NCBI GenBank assembly: GCA_007753915.1
Contig: CP036352.1
Coordinates: 2,542,001-2,606,000, forward strand
Source of the DNA: Phycisphaerae bacterium RAS2
Lineage (GTDB): Bacteria; Planctomycetota; Phycisphaerae; UBA1845; UTPLA1
Direction of reading: 5' to 3'
DNA length: 64,000 nucleotides
Positions 32,993-48,917 of the stretch are shown in pieces. Under the pieces are notes generated by a model, which did no database searches, was not told where the DNA came from, and saw only the letters and a program-made list of their open reading frames with translations. The position numbers and the translations under genes are program-made. How positions within the stretch are numbered: position 1 is the stretch's first letter; every line of letters starts with the position of its first letter.

Positions 32993-35900
32993 TTACTTGC
33001 CGTTCACGGCCGGCACTGCGACTGCCTGCGAAGCAGCCTGCCGCAGTTTCGTCGAGACCGTGTTGGGCAACTGGTTCCGCTGCTCAAAGACAGCGATGTC
33101 GCGGTAATCGACGACGCCGTCCTTGTTCAGGTCGAGCCGCAACGCATCACCAGCCGGCAGGCGCTTGGCCGGGATCGACAGTTCCACGCCGCCGCCCATG
33201 AGCGCCGGCACACAACTGCAATTGGACGCGAACGGGAACCCGAAGCCCGGCGCTGCCGCCAAGTTCGTGTAGAAGCTGTAGTCCAGCGCGTTCACGTTGG
33301 CGTCGTTGTTGAAGTTGGCGCTTCGGGTCGCCGGACTGACCACGAACGGACAGGCCGGAGCCGGTCCAGGTCCGGTGGCGACCGTCAACACCCACTGGGT
33401 GATGTCGTTGATATCCACGTCGCCGTCGTTGTCCGTGTCGCCGCCGCGGAGCAAGTGCGGCGTCGCCGCAACGTACTCGTTGTCCACGATCGACAGCGTT
33501 TGCGACGCCCAGAGCGTGTGCTGTTCATCCTTGGCACACAGGCTGTCCCATTCACCACACGGCAGCTCAATCGTGGCCGTGCCGGTTGCCGGTGCCGTGC
33601 CACTGAAGAACACGTTGACACAGATCGGGTCCGAGCAGCCGTCGGCGTTGCGAGCGACGAACTTGATCGGGCGATAGTAACCCGCGCCGGCGTTGACCAG
33701 GTTCAGGCGAACGGTGGCCGTGGCCTTGGTGACATCCAGAACGCGGATCGTGCCCTCGGTGACAGTCATGTTCCCGCACTCGTCGGTGACGGTGCAGGTG
33801 ACTGCCGTGTCGCCGACCGGGAAGAAGCTGCCCGACGGCGGCACGCACTCAACCGTAACCTTGCCGCCGCCGCACTTGGAATCCGCGGTGACGGAGTAGT
33901 GAACGGTCGCACCACAGACGCCGGCATCGGAGTACGCGACGAGCAGGTCGCATTGATCCGACGATGTGAGGCCCGGTTGCGAAATCGGTACGAGGCAGCC
34001 GACATTCGGCGGAATGTGGTTGTTCACGTTGATCGTGAAACACTCCGTCGTCTTACCTTGCTGCTGGTCGCCCTGCTTCGGACCCTGGCATTTGGCGCAT
34101 TCATCCTGCGCGTTCACGCAGAGCTCGACCGATACCTGGCAGGACGAAACGTTCTGCACGTAGATGTTGCCGCTGATCGTGGCGGAGTCAACATCGTATT
34201 CAACCTGCAGATCGTCCGACACGTTCGCGTTTCCGTTCACGTTGTACCAGTGATCCACGTACTCGAGATTGCAGTCCTCAACCGTGACACTCACCGGAAT
34301 TGTGGCCGAGCACTTGGAGTCAATGTCAACCTGCTTCGGCAGCTTGCCGGCATCGATTCGCGGCGGCATGCTGTCCTGAAGAATGATGACCGCCTTGCAG
34401 GGCAGGGACACGTTGCCCGAGCCATCGACGGCTTCATAGATCAGGACAATGATCGCCGAGTTGGGGGCGCACTGCGGAGCGAACGGGTTGCCCGCGATGA
34501 AGTAGTTAACGAGATGGACCTGGACCTTGTTGTCACCGCAATTGTCGGTGACCGATCCGCCCAGAAACTCCTCGAAGTACTCCTTGCAGTTCACATCCTT
34601 CGAAGGCTGACCCTGGAGGCAACCTTGCTGCAACGGGAGTCCGCAATCCAGCCCGCAGATGCCGGGCAGATTGTCAATGCACTCCAGGTACTTCGTCGGC
34701 GGACATACGAGCACAGGCGGCTCTTCGTCGTTGAACGTGATGACCTGATCGCAGGACGCGCTGTTCTTGCAATCGTCTGTGGCCGACCAGTGCCGGACGA
34801 TTCGCTTCGGATTCGTCAGACACTCGTCCCAATAGCTCACACTGGGGAGCTCGGTGCAATTGTCCGTGGCCGTTGCGAAGCCCGTATCCTTCGGGGTCGA
34901 AGGATCCCCGCATTCCAGGAGGACATCCTTCGGGCACTGAATGACCGGCGCCGTATCGTCGGAGATCGTCGTCGTGAGACAGCAACCGCCGATCGATTCG
35001 TTGCCGCAGCAATCCGTCGCCGAGAAGTGCAGCTTCACGGATGCCGGGCAGCTTGTCAGATCACTGACTGGAACTTCACCACAGAGGTAGAGAGTTGTTC
35101 CGGAGTTCTTCCCGGTTCCGCTTGTTTCACAGAAACCGAACGTTGGCTCGCCAACCGTTACGCCGGTCGCATTCTGCACGGTGATGTTCAGACCGGACAA
35201 GTCAATGCAGCAGTTGTCCGAGATGCTGACCGAGAACTGAATCACACCCGTGCAGTCTTCACCCAGCGATACGGATTGCGTGCCTTCGCAGTAGTTGACA
35301 ACCGGCGGGGACAGATCCAGCTGCGTGATCGTTTGTTGACAGGACGCCGTGTTGCCGCAGGCATCCGTCGCCGTCCAGGTGCGAACGATCGACTGGAACG
35401 GGCACTCGCTGTCACCCAACCCCGGGCTCGGCTCGTCCGTATATTCAACCAACGGCTCTAGTGTGCAATTGTCGCCCACCTTCGGATAGCCGACGTTCGG
35501 ATTCTCATTCGGGTCGGTGGACTCGTCGCAATCGACTTCAACGTCCGCCGGACAGAGGATGTACGGCTCCATCTCGTCAATCACGCTGGCGCTATCGGTG
35601 CAGGCCGTCGCCTGATTCGAGCAGCAATCCGTGGCATTGATCGTCACCAGTACCGTCGCCGGGCAGCCGGACAGGCCTGACACGGGAACGTAACCGGTCA
35701 CATGGAGAATCCTCGGATTCTTCGGGTCAACTTCGACATTCCAGGAGGGCTCCCCAACCGTCGTGGTGTGCAGGCTCTTGGGATCGAGCTGCGCACTGAC
35801 CGAAACGCCCTTCGAACTGATGCAGCAATTGTCTTCAACCGTGGCGGTGAAATTCACCTGGCCGGAGCAGCCTTCGCCCAGGCTCGCATCCTCGGCGACG

Positions 35901-39342: not shown

Positions 39343-41934
39343 ATGAAGAACGAAACCGTCACGCGTTCAACCTTCGTCAAGCCCGGCCCCTTTGAGCGCT
39401 TCCGGAAACTCGGGATCGCTTCGCTCATCGCAATGTTCCTGCTGCTGGGCGCGACGACCGAGTCGCGCGCTTTCATCGGGGGCGACACGGACGGTGACGG
39501 AGTCGACGATGTCATTGACAACTGTCCTGATGTCGCCAATCCCGATCAATTCGACATGGACAGCGACGGGCTCGGCGATGATTGCGATAATTGTATATTT
39601 GACGTCAACCCCGGCCAAGAAGACGCAGACTTTGATGGCATCGGCGACGAGTGCGACTCCTGCACCGACACCGATGGCGACGGCTTCGGCGATCCCGGCT
39701 TCCTGAACAACACTTGCGCGGAGGATGGCTGCCCGGCCGACGCGCTTAAGAGCGATCCCGGCGTCTGCGGCTGCGGCGTGGCCGATGACGACAGCGACAG
39801 CGACGGCACCCCGGATTGCAATGACGGCTGCCCCAGTGATCCCAACAAGATTGATCCCGGCGCATGCGGATGTGGCGCGGCGGACGATGACACCGACAGC
39901 GACGGCGTCGCGGATTGCAACGACTTCTGCCCGAACGACTTCGACCCCGGCAATCCCTTCGTGGACAGCGACGGCGACGGCGTGCAGGACTGCATCGACT
40001 TCTGCCCCGATGATTTCGATCCGGGTAATCTCTTTGTCGACACGGACGGTGATGGCGTGCAGGACTGCCTCGACAATTGCGTTGACGATGCGAATCCGGG
40101 ACAGGAGGACGGTGACAGCGACGGAATCGGCGATGCCTGCGACGTCTGCCCGGTGGAATTCGATCCCGGCCAGGAAGACACGGACATCGACGGCGTCGGC
40201 GACGCATGCGACAACTGCCCCGGCACCTTTAATCCCGCTCCCCAGGCCGATGCAGACGGCGACGGCGTCGGCGATGATTGCGATGGTTGCCCGGCCGATC
40301 CCAACAAGACAGTTCCAGGCGCCTGCGGCTGCGGCGTGGCCGACACCGATACCGACAGCGACGGAACGCCGGACTGCAACGACGGCTGTCCGAATGATCC
40401 GGCGAAGATCGCGCCGGGCGCTTGCGGTTGTGGCGTTGCGGACACCGACACCGACAGCGACGGAACGCCAGACTGCAACGACGGCTGCCCGAACGATCCG
40501 GCGAAGACCATGCCGGGCATCTGCGGCTGCGGCGTCGCCGACACGGATTCAGACTCGGACGGCGTAGCGGACTGCAACGACAATTGTCCCGGCGAGCCGG
40601 ACGTTGACTCCGACGGTGACGGTACGCTGGACTGCGCAGACGGATGTCCGAATGACCCGGCAAAAATCGCGCCGGGCGCCTGCGGTTGCGGCGTCGCGGA
40701 CACCGACACCGACAGCGACGGCACTCCGGACTGCAACGACGGCTGCCCGAACGACCCGGCGAAGATCGCGCCGGGCGCCTGCGGTTGCGGCGTCGCGGAC
40801 ACCGACACCGACAGCGACGGCACTCCGGACTGCAACGATGGTTGCCCGAATGATCCGGCCAAGACCATGCCGGGTGCCTGCGGCTGCGGCGTCGCCGACA
40901 CCGACACCGACAGCGACGGCACACCGGATTGCAACGACGGCTGTCCCAACGATCCGGCGAAGACCATGCCTGGCATCTGCGGCTGCGGCACGGCTGACAC
41001 GGACACAGACAGCGACGGCACCGCGGATTGCAACGACGGCTGCCCGAACGATCCTGCCAAAACCATGCCGGGCGCCTGCGGTTGCGGCGTGGCGGACACC
41101 GACACCGACAGCGACGGCACACCGGATTGCAACGATGGCTGCCCGAACGATGCCAACAAGACCGCGCCGGGAGCATGTGGTTGCGGGGTAGCCGATGATG
41201 ACAGCGACAGCGATGGCGTCGTGGACTGCAACGACGATTGCCTCGGCACGCCGGGCGGCGAAACCGCCAATGCCAACGGTTGCTCGTGCAGCCAACTGGA
41301 TTGCGACGACAGCGATCCGTGCACGATCGACTCCTGCACTGACGGCGTCTGCTCCAACGTGCTTCAAGACGCTGACAATGACGGGATTTGTGACCTGAAC
41401 GACATCTGTGCCGACACGCCGACCGGCGAAACGCCGAACGGCAAGGGATGCTCGTGCAGTCAGGTCGATTGCGACGACGGCGATCCGTGCACGATCGATT
41501 CCTGCACCGACGGCCTCTGCTCAAACGTCTTCCAGGATACGGATGGCGACGGCGTTTGCGATGCGAGCGACGTTTGCCCCGACTTCGACGACAACATCGA
41601 TACCGACTCCGACGGCACGCCGGACGGCTGTGATGGATGCCCTGAAGATGACAACAAGACCGCGGCCGGCGCGTGCGGGTGCGGCAACTCGGATGCCGAC
41701 GCCGACGGCAACGGCACAGCGGATTGTCTGGATAACGACAACGGCAATGCCAACGAGAACGAAAACGAGAATGAAAACCAAAACGGCAACAGCAACGAGG
41801 ACCCCGGTCCGCAGCCCAACCCCGAAGCTTGCGGCGTAACCTGCGGCCCCGGCATGGGCACGATGATGCCGCTCGTGGGCATCTTCCTGATCGGCATGCG
41901 ACGCCGTGGACGTCCTCGGCGCACGGTTTCCTGA
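39343..41934 (+). CDS. Secreted TSP3-repeat protein with C-terminal sorting-like signal
   Basis: ATG 39343 follows GGAG and starts an extended signal peptide (about 45 residues, core 'IASLIAMFLLLGA'). The product is 863 residues. Almost all of the mature part consists of thrombospondin type 3 calcium repeats: classic 'DxDxDGxxDxxDNCP' units first, then about a dozen 33-residue units of the '[18 protein letters not shown]' type, then two 'CSCSQLDCDDSDPCTIDSC'-like units. Next comes an Asn/Glu run, a Pro-rich stretch, 'ACGVTCGPGMGT', a short hydrophobic segment ('MMPLVGIFLIGM') and an Arg cluster at the very end. That tripartite end resembles CTERM sorting signals. It should be anchored at the surface. 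It is divergent from the giant TSP3 protein. Confidence 0.9.
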   Translation: MKNETVTRSTFVKPGPFERFRKLGIASLIAMFLLLGATTESRAFIGGDTDGDGVDDVIDNCPDVANPDQFDMDSDGLGDDCDNCIFDVNPGQEDADFDGIGDECDSCTDTDGDGFGDPGFLNNTCAEDGCPADALKSDPGVCGCGVADDDSDSDGTPDCNDGCPSDPNKIDPGACGCGAADDDTDSDGVADCNDFCPNDFDPGNPFVDSDGDGVQDCIDFCPDDFDPGNLFVDTDGDGVQDCLDNCVDDANPGQEDGDSDGIGDACDVCPVEFDPGQEDTDIDGVGDACDNCPGTFNPAPQADADGDGVGDDCDGCPADPNKTVPGACGCGVADTDTDSDGTPDCNDGCPNDPAKIAPGACGCGVADTDTDSDGTPDCNDGCPNDPAKTMPGICGCGVADTDSDSDGVADCNDNCPGEPDVDSDGDGTLDCADGCPNDPAKIAPGACGCGVADTDTDSDGTPDCNDGCPNDPAKIAPGACGCGVADTDTDSDGTPDCNDGCPNDPAKTMPGACGCGVADTDTDSDGTPDCNDGCPNDPAKTMPGICGCGTADTDTDSDGTADCNDGCPNDPAKTMPGACGCGVADTDTDSDGTPDCNDGCPNDANKTAPGACGCGVADDDSDSDGVVDCNDDCLGTPGGETANANGCSCSQLDCDDSDPCTIDSCTDGVCSNVLQDADNDGICDLNDICADTPTGETPNGKGCSCSQVDCDDGDPCTIDSCTDGLCSNVFQDTDGDGVCDASDVCPDFDDNIDTDSDGTPDGCDGCPEDDNKTAAGACGCGNSDADADGNGTADCLDNDNGNANENENENENQNGNSNEDPGPQPNPEACGVTCGPGMGTMMPLVGIFLIGMRRRGRPRRTVS
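39760..41215 (+). repeat. 99-bp tandem repeats encoding TSP3 units
   Basis: Repeated 99-bp units of the '[20 protein letters not shown]' type. Some neighbouring copies are almost identical at DNA level (for example around 40,680-40,860). Confidence 0.88.
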
Positions 41935-42837: not shown

Positions 42838-43947
42838 TTAGCTCTGCGATTTCACATCAAGCTGGTGCGCCTTACGTCCGCCGCGCGTCGTCCTCGCCGC
42901 GGTCGGCTCGCCGGTCAGCAGCACCTTTGCCACGTCGACCGCCCGCGAGACCAGGTCGGCCGCCCCGTCGCGAAGCTCCCGGCTTTGTGCCACGTAGGCG
43001 ACGTTTCGCTCCATGTCCTCGGCGCTCCAGCCGCGCGAATGCGCGATGTACGGAAACGGCGGAAGGTGGCAGCCCAGCTCAGCGAAGAAACCGAGCATCT
43101 GCCCGGCGACGGCCTGCACGTTGTCCTGCCCGCCGGTGATGATGAACGCGGCGACTTTGTTGTGCATCAGCACCTTGTTCGAAATCGTTATCTGGTTCTG
43201 AATGCAGTTCATCCGCTCGACCATCTTGTAATACAGCGAGCTGGCGCAGCCCCAGCGGATCGGCGTGGCGACCAGAATCACGTCAGCCCAGTGGACAATC
43301 GCTTCGTACACACGGTCAAGCTGATCGTTCGGGTCCATCTGCGTGATGCTGCACGGCCAGGTGCAGGCGTGCGAGCTTTTGGAGTAATACCCCTCGCACG
43401 CGCGAAAGGCGAGCTCGTTCAACTTCACAAGCCGGGTCTGCACGCCGAGTTTCGTCGCAGCGTGCGCCATGGCATGATCCAGCAGGGCGTCTGACGTTGA
43501 GTACCGCGGATTCGCAGCATCCATGACGGTCGTCGAGATGCCCACGACGCGAATCGGCCCCTCATCGCGCTGGACCGGCCGGGCCAACGGGTGAGGATCG
43601 TGCTTCTTACGCGTGCGCGGCGTGATCTGCTTCGAATTGATCAGCACGCGGCCGTTCTCGACCTTTACGGCGTACGTGGGCACGGCGTCTTCTTCGTAGC
43701 CCGGCTCGCCCAAGCCTGTCTCGCAGTGGAACTTCCAGTTGTGCCAGGGGCAGACCACGTAGTCGCCGTCGAGCCGGCCCTCGCCCAGCGGACCGGCAAC
43801 ATGGTTGCAGACACCGTTGATTGCCGTGAAACGTCCGCCGCGATGAATCAGCGCGATCTTCGTGCCGCCGGCCGTGACCTGCTGGAGCGGCTTCGTCGCC
43901 AATTCGTCGGCCGATCCGACATCGTGCCATTGTTCTGACGCTGCCAT
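42838..43947 (-). CDS. Rieske [2Fe-2S] domain fused to flavodoxin-like NAD(P)H-dependent reductase
   Basis: The protein has 369 residues. The N-terminal Rieske domain (about 5-108) has both ligand pairs, 'CNHVAG' (Cys-x-His) and 'CPWHNWKF' (Cys-x2-His). A linker leads to a flavodoxin-like domain (about 130-340) of the NADPH-dependent FMN reductase type: 'IRVVGISTTVMDAANPRYS', 'VHWADVILVATPIRWG' and 'AAFIITGGQDNVQAVAGQML'. It could pass electrons between flavin and the iron-sulfur cluster within one chain. The partner gene is unknown. The downstream gene on the same strand side (43982-44347) encodes a SnoaL-like protein 35 bp upstream of this start, so they are probably one operon with SnoaL first. 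Confidence 0.87.
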   Translation of the reverse strand: MAASEQWHDVGSADELATKPLQQVTAGGTKIALIHRGGRFTAINGVCNHVAGPLGEGRLDGDYVVCPWHNWKFHCETGLGEPGYEEDAVPTYAVKVENGRVLINSKQITPRTRKKHDPHPLARPVQRDEGPIRVVGISTTVMDAANPRYSTSDALLDHAMAHAATKLGVQTRLVKLNELAFRACEGYYSKSSHACTWPCSITQMDPNDQLDRVYEAIVHWADVILVATPIRWGCASSLYYKMVERMNCIQNQITISNKVLMHNKVAAFIITGGQDNVQAVAGQMLGFFAELGCHLPPFPYIAHSRGWSAEDMERNVAYVAQSRELRDGAADLVSRAVDVAKVLLTGEPTAARTTRGGRKAHQLDVKSQS

Positions 43948-47768: not shown

Positions 47769-48590
47769 TTGGACGCCACGAACGCTATCCTGTTGCCTGT
47801 TGCTTTCTTCGTCGCCGCCCTGCTTTATTCGTCGGTCGGCCACGCCGGGGCATCAGCCTATCTCGCGGTCATGGCGCTGGCGTCGATCGAGCCGGCGGTG
47901 ATGAAGCCGACGGCGCTTACCCTGAACATCCTCGTTGCGGCCGTCGCGTCATACAACTTCAGGCAAGCCGGGCATTTCTCGTGGCGACTCTTCTGGCCGT
48001 TCGCTGTGACGTCGATCCCCTGCGCGTATCTCGGCGGTGCGATGACCGCCCCACCGACTGCTTATAAGTATGTCGTTGGGGCCGTACTGCTTTTCGCAGC
48101 TTTTCGGATGTTCGCCAAGCCCACGGAAATGCACCTCCGAGATCTGCGACCGCCCCGCGCGCTCATTGCCTTTCCTCTTGGCGCGATCATCGGTTTCCTC
48201 TCGGGTCTGACGGGCGTCGGCGGCGGCATCTTTCTTAGCCCGCTGCTTGTCATGGCTGGTTGGGCTTCGATTCGTACTGCTTCCGGCGTCGCGGCGTTGT
48301 TCATTTTTGTGAACTCCTCCGCCGGACTTCTTGGTATGGGCAATTCTCTCTCACGCGTCCCACCCGAGATTCTGTTCTGGCAACCCGTGGCGCTGCTGGG
48401 CGGCTTCCTCGGGTCTTACTGGGGTAGTCGGAGGCTTCCGGTCGTCGCGCTAAGGCGATTGCTCGCCGTCGTGCTCATCATTGCCGGGGCGAAGATGATT
48501 CTGACCGGGAGCCAATCAAAGCCCGTGGCGGTGTCGCCCACTCGAGCTATGATTTCCGGACAGACAAACCTTTTTGGAGGAACGCCATGA
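47769..48590 (+). CDS. TauE/SafE family membrane transporter
   Basis: TTG 47769 starts a 273-residue protein with about eight membrane helices in two related halves. The family signature glycines appear twice ('GHAGASAYLAVMAL' and 'SGLTGVGGGIFLSPLL'). The family exports sulfite or organosulfonates or imports other small anions; the cargo cannot be deduced here. The stop codon overlaps the start of the next ORF (ATGA at 48587-48590), and a GGAGG lies in its last codons, so the two genes are translationally coupled. Confidence 0.88.
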   Translation: MDATNAILLPVAFFVAALLYSSVGHAGASAYLAVMALASIEPAVMKPTALTLNILVAAVASYNFRQAGHFSWRLFWPFAVTSIPCAYLGGAMTAPPTAYKYVVGAVLLFAAFRMFAKPTEMHLRDLRPPRALIAFPLGAIIGFLSGLTGVGGGIFLSPLLVMAGWASIRTASGVAALFIFVNSSAGLLGMGNSLSRVPPEILFWQPVALLGGFLGSYWGSRRLPVVALRRLLAVVLIIAGAKMILTGSQSKPVAVSPTRAMISGQTNLFGGTP

Positions 48591-48856
48591 AGATGCTTTC
48601 CGGTCCAATCGCCCTTGCCCTTGCCGCTGTCGCCTGCGGCGGAGCCAGCCTGCGACTGTTCTATTGTTGAGGCGATCCCCGAGCGACGATCGGTTCGATC
48701 GCCTTTCTTGCAGGAATCGTGTTCTCCGCCCCCGCATCGTTGAGCGGCGCCAACCGCGCTTCGCACCCCATCAGTACCTGGGCTGCGATTCTCCTCAACA
48801 CGGCGGCGCTGGTCGCCCTTGTGTACAGCATGATTTCGTCCGGCGGCATTTCGCCG
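48587..48856 (+). CDS. Small membrane protein with in-frame UGA: candidate selenoprotein or nonsense mutant
   Basis: The ATG overlaps the transporter stop codon and is preceded by GGAGG (48576-48580) at 6 bases. After 27 codons a TGA occurs (48668-48670), directly after a Cys codon ('FYC-stop-GDPR'). The same frame continues for 61 more codons to TAA at 48854-48856. The continuation is clearly protein-like, with two hydrophobic segments ('ATIGSIAFLAGIVFS' and 'WAAILLNTAALVALVYSMI'). If the UGA is read, the product is 89 residues with three membrane helices and a Cys-Sec pair. The alternative is a simple nonsense mutation. A hairpin follows the UGA directly. Confidence 0.55.
48668..48703 (+). 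promoter_or_regulatory. Hairpin directly after the in-frame UGA, SECIS-like
   Basis: GGCGATC (48671-48677) pairs perfectly with GATCGCC (48697-48703). Inside, CCGA (48679-48682) pairs with TCGG (48690-48693), leaving a 7-base apical loop that begins with G. Bacterial SECIS elements are hairpins immediately after the UGA with a G at the start of the loop. The distance to the loop (12 bases) is shorter than usual. Confidence 0.35.
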
Positions 48857-48917
48857 TAATCGGCAGCCCTCTCGTCGCGCCGATAGCCGAATCGGTCTCG
48901 CGCGATAGAATGCCGCC

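Follow-up and report, generated by a model that had tools for sequence, protein, structure and literature searches.

Does a UGA triplet inside an otherwise open bacterial reading frame mark a damaged gene, a genuine stop or a site of selenocysteine (Sec) insertion? The question is raised by a 90-codon ORF at 48587-48856 on the forward strand of the 64,000-nucleotide stretch of DNA analysed here (the window). The frame opens with an ATG at 48587, closes with codon 48854-48856 ahead of a TAA stop (48857-48859) and is interrupted only once, by a UGA at codon 28 (48668-48670) immediately behind Cys27, giving the translation MKMLSGPIALALAAVACGGASLRLFYC-U-GDPRATIGSIAFLAGIVFSAPASLSGANRASHPISTWAAILLNTAALVALVYSMISSGGISP. 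An earlier sequence-only reading had drawn attention to this UGA after Cys in a small membrane protein ORF, which is indeed as described, and had put forward a candidate selenoprotein. That proposal is now strongly supported by the combination of Sec machinery in the genome, homologues with UGA or Cys at the same site and a covarying hairpin, albeit with no bench demonstration. We hold with high confidence that the ORF is a genuine selenoprotein gene and that its UGA is very probably decoded as Sec; selenium incorporation has not been shown, and our confidence extends to the identity of the protein as a selenoprotein and not to its function.

Genomic setting and selenocysteine machinery

The perfect Shine-Dalgarno sequence ascribed to the ORF is present, as GGAGG at 48576-48580 (forward strand), 6 nt ahead of the ATG. 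Upstream lies a TauE/SafE family transporter gene (47769-48590, forward strand; PF01925, E 2.7e-36) whose stop overlaps the start of the ORF as ATGA, and in the same-genus genome G108 a TauE relative (72% identity over 243 residues) also stands upstream of the family gene. The ATGA overlap is seen in the window, but the suggested coupling to the transporter is not general: among 75 neighbouring proteins, selected from ORFs around member loci, the window and its own neighbours, no family occurred in more than two and TauE did not recur. Clustering of 235 ORFs from 40 loci similarly gave no cluster found in more than three loci, both analyses having used a home-made ORF caller. Downstream, on the same strand, Pfam matching identifies an MptE-like gene (PF01973; 48918-50885), to which no functional link has been shown. 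Elsewhere in the window, tandem repeats of 75 and 99 bp are arrayed over 39754-41236, and their translation would give DTDSDG-like motifs, which we infer to be possibly calcium-binding, and 42838-43947 encodes a protein joining a Rieske domain to an FMN reductase domain.

The genome is equipped to read UGA as Sec. The selA (508.6 bits), selB (297.8 bits) and selD (372 bits) genes all score above their cut-offs, as does a tRNA-Sec gene (71 bits) to which ARAGORN assigns the anticodon tca; the search for selA, selB, selC and selD that had been proposed as a check has therefore found each of them, favouring a selenoprotein. The selD gene (G000:C1:2633461-2634384) carries an in-frame UGA of its own within NCAGUAGK, a known location for Sec. 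Across the window's order, selA was detected in 97 of 114 genomes (above cut-off in 93), and the family gene occurs in 49 of the 97 selA-positive genomes and in none of the other 17 (Fisher 2.8e-5), a value that is indicative only, because the genomes are related and some are incomplete. With selA also present in all ten carriers tested elsewhere in the phylum, the overlap stands at 59 of 59 tested carriers.

Homologues and the hairpin behind the UGA

Homologues were sought at several depths. When the window protein was compared with the 114 genomes of its order, 30 loci were viewed (weaker matches were not examined individually), and 26 of these, the window included, proved to be members, all with UGA at the equivalent place; L038, L043, L045 and L047 were judged non-members. 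A profile of 51 aligned rows (A3), from which most divergent members, a locus with a long C-terminal stretch (L048) and a cut one (L055) were left out, returned 55 matches in 49 of the 114 genomes. All 55 were inspected, and the column of the window's UGA holds TGA in 53 and Cys in one, the remaining match (G090:C419) being spurious. An earlier profile, A1, matched 17 of 392 genomes across the phylum, of which 11, including the window's, contain UGA genes; matches in G147, G193, G250, G307, G321 and G379 were unrelated or shared the motif only. Within the class, A3 matched 53 of 397 genomes, 47 of them inside the order; one of the six others (G748) has a UGA gene, and the remaining five, G147 and four with an LptF-like protein, were set aside. 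The sum of these searches (53 from the order with A3, 10 from the phylum and 1 from the class) is 64 genes with UGA in the equivalent column, the window's included, in 60 genomes, together with a single Cys gene.

A scan of the genome collection for an exact DNA pattern returned 43 loci, 39 of them genuine and four false (L064, L070, L077 and L079); the genuine loci overlap the profile-search members and were not added to the 64. By name, 34 are planctomycete (one Pirellulaceae), four are labelled only 'bacterium' and one is Limisphaerales, whereas the family's DNA pattern was absent from viral contigs. The family has so far been seen almost only in planctomycete bacteria. Around the Sec the typical motif is [YF]-C-U-G-[HD]-P-L, and a check that had been proposed, the residue found at this site in homologues, yields UGA in 64 genes, Cys in one, and Trp or Arg in no recognised member. 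Gly occurs in this column only in a protein from four genomes of one genus whose matching C-terminal module we presume from its sequence to be LptF-like; the module is not counted as a homologue.

The RNA behind the UGA is conserved as well. For 35 homologues found by protein similarity (set A2, which omits G267 (L208) and members found later), a hairpin lies at a fixed place in 34, its stem having at most seven pairs and its loop, which mostly reads GGUNC, beginning 21 nt after the UGA. In the window this is CGAUC-GGUUC-GAUCG (48687-48701, forward strand; loop 48692-48696), a 5-bp stem with its GGUUC loop 21 nt behind the UGA. Over the set, 91.8% of the 245 stem cells are paired and the covariation score is 0.480, neither value being reached by any of 500 shuffles; two-sided changes occur in five of the seven pairs, a number attained in 6 of 500 shuffles, pairing falls to 29-53% when the partner is slid by one to three columns, and RNAalifold, unprompted, returned the same stem with one extra pair. 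Resampling of synonymous codons gave 73.2% pairing (sd 2.2) with a maximum of 81.2% in 2000 trials, below the observed value. A stricter control, in which codons were swapped within columns, averaged 88.8%, and its maximum in 2000 trials equalled the observed 91.8%, so that much of the pairing is also set by column make-up. For the Gly in the loop, 33 of 35 homologues use GGT, a codon that accounts for 30 of 252 Gly residues across seven ORFs of the window.

Departures from the loop pattern do occur. L203 and L208 lack GGUNC, and in L036 the pattern seems to be present but out of register. Inspection by eye gave GGUN for L146-L150, L152-L154, L157 and L162-L165, GGGAC for L151 and AGUUC for L155, L156, L158 and L160, the sequence of L159 being cut; neither L203 nor L208 has any of these loops.

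The hairpin that the sequence-only reading had offered as the SECIS is a different one (48669-48705, forward strand), mutually exclusive with the conserved stem. When the 45 nt starting at the UGA are folded, it has the lowest energy (-19.4 kcal/mol, z -3.11) and, as only 1 of 200 shuffles did as well, is more than chance; the conserved hairpin, at -5.2 kcal/mol on its own, is not the window's most stable fold. That earlier hairpin begins at the UGA itself, however, and the comparison across homologues selects 48687-48701 in its place. Because the first 12 nt after the UGA are expected to lie inside the ribosome's mRNA channel, we omitted them from a second round of folding. The window's best fold (-8.2 kcal/mol) then contains the conserved hairpin, 32 of the 35 sequences fold with at least four of its five inner pairs and 34 of 35 reach -7.5 kcal/mol or lower, although the same-genus relative L019 fails to form the hairpin even so. 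In the part of a 2026 review available to us, the consensus for bacterial SECIS elements (bSECIS) asks for an upper stem of 4-16 bp, a free energy of at most -7.5 kcal/mol and a loop of 3-9 nt that carries G in the first two positions and lies 16-37 nt from the UGA (PMC13188914). Measured against that account, the conserved hairpin satisfies the requirements for loop, distance and stem; the energy limit is reached by the fold from which the first 12 nt have been omitted (-8.2 kcal/mol), but not by the 5-bp hairpin alone (-5.2 kcal/mol). The loop of the alternative hairpin lies 12 nt from the UGA, short of the 16-37 nt of the model as available to us, a weakness that had been conceded when it was proposed. 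The conserved GGUNC hairpin, and not the one noted earlier, is likely to be the SECIS.

These data bear on the explanations that dispense with Sec. From the window alone one could not have ruled out that an ordinary gene for a small membrane protein had acquired a nonsense mutation or been wrongly sequenced, the competing explanation recognised from the start, and a dN/dS of 0.50 behind the UGA in the window's genus pair is in keeping with such decay. Yet UGA stands in the equivalent column of 64 genes with a covarying hairpin behind it, and its retention in 60 genomes would call for independent errors at one codon, which makes this explanation very unlikely; it is not borne out, and we give it almost no credence. 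Nor do we find much room, though perhaps a shade more, for the UGA as a real stop, with a 27-residue peptide as the product and the hairpin as some other RNA element. Conserved RNA structure behind the codon and low synonymous change there in some pairs would suit such an arrangement; what it leaves unexplained is coding beyond the hairpin, where the stretch for helix 3, read in frame, exceeds a hydropathy of 0.5 in all 28 long members, against 1 of 28 for either of the other frames, the one Cys paralogue (in G030), which reads straight through, and selA in every one of the 59 tested carriers. Judged by this frame-specific hydropathy, the region behind the UGA is translated. Substitution rates say less, since dN/dS in four close pairs was 0.50 (window and G108), 0.12, 0.90 and 0.19, so purifying selection is not clear in each, and the test is blunt in that pressure to keep the RNA would itself depress synonymous change.

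There remains decoding of UGA as some other amino acid, through general reassignment or suppression. The frame would be open under such codes, but UGA terminates 17 of the 30 long coding-like ORFs in the window, the sole member without UGA has Cys, and the Sec machinery is complete; the chance that this holds is, in our view, negligible.

Decoding of the UGA as Sec would run along familiar lines, an account that rests on comparative genomics and lacks bench evidence. A SelB-type factor loaded with Sec-tRNA would bind the hairpin with the GGUNC loop 21 nt behind the UGA, a step that follows from established knowledge of Sec insertion, and Sec would be inserted at codon 28. In its in-frame UGA, complete machinery, hairpin with an early loop G at 16-37 nt and Cys counterpart, the gene resembles other bacterial selenoproteins of the SelB/bSECIS type; it differs from them as a small membrane protein without a known domain, and in a ratio of one Cys gene to 64 UGA genes.

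A small membrane protein and its possible roles

The AlphaFold2 model of the window protein places helices at residues 6-25, 31-57 and 61-85. The membrane segments expected on either side of the UGA are thereby recovered as predicted helices, if only at low confidence (mean pLDDT 66.6). The 51 rows of the A3 alignment share G19, C27, G29 and G36, as well as position 28, which is Sec except for the Cys of one paralogue. Averages of Lys plus Arg are 0.9 in the N-terminal tail, 0.8-1.2 near the Sec and 2.3 after helix 2, a distribution that weakly favours an outer position for the Sec. From helix prediction and charge distribution we infer, on weak grounds, that the product is a membrane protein of two or three helices and that helix 1 ends at the Sec, which may face the periplasm; short forms of about 50-60 residues would have two helices and long forms three, some with an extra helix in front. 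The Pirellulaceae member at L048:3624-4619 has a C-terminal extension of about 200 residues with no Pfam match.

Cys directly precedes Sec in 55 of 64 members, and in the other nine its place is taken by Gly (six) or by Ser, Val or Thr (one each). Since that Cys can be missing, the Sec is the fixed residue. Five of the nine have a Cys at -4, -3 or +1 and four have none near, which argues against an obligate Cys-Sec pair.

Function can only be inferred. The likeliest role is redox, although we would not credit it with a majority share of the probability; part of the remainder falls to binding of soft metals and the rest is open. For redox, the hint is the Cys that adjoins Sec in 55 of 64 members: the selenol, usually with that Cys as resolving thiol, may reduce peroxides or disulfides at the membrane surface. 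A selenoprotein whose business is capture or transport of soft metals (Hg, Cu or Ag) in place of redox catalysis is a possibility we rate well below this, at around one in several. MerT is a small membrane protein with vicinal thiols near a helix end, and the family resembles it in size and in the placement of its thiols; the Cys paralogue has a His-rich tail; and the CopA model was weakly matched by 1 of 51 members (E 0.0012) and the CbiM model by one divergent member (E 0.047), both probably by chance. Set against these, the vicinal Cys is not invariant (missing in 9 of 64), the His tail belongs to one gene only, no family recurs beyond 2 of the 75 neighbouring proteins, and a scan of 51 members that admitted E values up to 1 gave no match to PF02411, the MerT model, whose presence in the model set is assumed. 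As far as the accessible part of the review goes, the Sec-containing transporters in the literature have been tied to resistance against metals or metalloids, which lends soft-metal binding some support, whereas the motif listed there for the Sec-containing MerT-like mercuric transport protein is C/SxxU (Table 1), as against the CUG[HD]P of the present family (PMC13188914).

Searches for known relatives of the family returned little. Scans of the 51 members gave no convincing match in Pfam (best E 0.0087, to Tom22, 1 of 51) or NCBIfam (best the CopA match already mentioned), and NCBIfam selenoprotein models matched neither these nor six divergent members, the presence of each model not having been checked. 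Foldseek found no match at E 0.001 or better, the best VIA-align hit (Z 8.4) falls within a range that the program warns is common for helical models, and a sequence search of solved structures yielded at best a designed protein (E 0.79). Eukaryotic selenoproteins K and S are likewise small and membrane-anchored and carry Sec in a short chain, there in a soluble tail and here between two helices; no homology was tested. The review counts 119 selenoprotein families and subfamilies, and in its Table 1, as available to us, no motif equals CUG[HD]P; hypothetical entries given without a motif (GOS_B and DF, for example) are excluded only by the absent NCBIfam match (PMC13188914). In SaoC, SaoL, HgcA, MbdU, KCU-star and CopZ form 2, listed in that table, Cys also adjoins Sec, but the motif of the new family differs in lying between two predicted membrane helices. 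We found no published description of the family within the open-licence literature. By that measure the family is undescribed; its mechanism is that of a selenoprotein, and it is unusual as a membrane microprotein in which Cys forms are nearly absent.

A family with few cysteine forms

The one Cys gene (L028:1105-1482, in G030) is a tandem copy directly upstream of a Sec gene, reads CATYCCGHPLAAIGS and carries TGC in place of the neighbouring gene's TGA. In the tree the pair group as sisters (support 99/99), which suggests that the Cys form was derived late, although the tree rests on few columns and is elsewhere poorly resolved. Its hairpin loop is GGATC, without GGU, and its C-terminal tail is His-rich (HDHKHGHGE, HDHDHDHEQEQ). 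The plasmids searched with this paralogue gave no match.

An older Cys form might be sought in proteins of about 500 residues from another planctomycete family with a similar N-terminal hairpin, which we presume to be MotA/TolQ/ExbB-like (L104, L105, L107, L170-L199). In most of 30 copies viewed, RYFC[SGN]HPLEY lies between two N-terminal hydrophobic stretches. Alignment of the family with this hairpin by hhalign gave a probability of 87, with Cys aligned to Sec, and a score of 36.3, where 60 column shuffles averaged 9.8 and reached at most 15.3. Once the five motif columns were masked, the score fell to 12.0; the resemblance is then at background, and the hairpin is not counted as a homologue. 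If it were one, it would be an old Cys form.

On balance we lean towards a selenium-dependent family of membrane microproteins for which Sec is practically obligate, with the Sec invariant, the adjacent Cys drifting and the only clear Cys form a late tandem duplicate. If so, it would represent a class of membrane-surface selenol proteins invisible to homology methods that rely on Cys relatives. The authors of deep-Sep state, in the part of their paper available to us, that every selenoprotein known seems to have a homologue with Cys, and that genes lacking one may be filtered out (PMC12013277). The present family, which 49 of the 114 genomes in the window's order carry and for which there is no convincing Pfam or NCBIfam match, is a near exception to that rule. 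Selenoprotein searches depend on Cys/Sec pairs, and the family suggests that further Sec-only families may stay hidden; it also offers a concrete test of the benefit of selenium to a protein that seems hardly ever to exchange it for sulfur. Two Sec genes in tandem occur at L147 (G012:C101:33586-33828 and 33965-34213), one of them with CUVPP instead of CUGHM.
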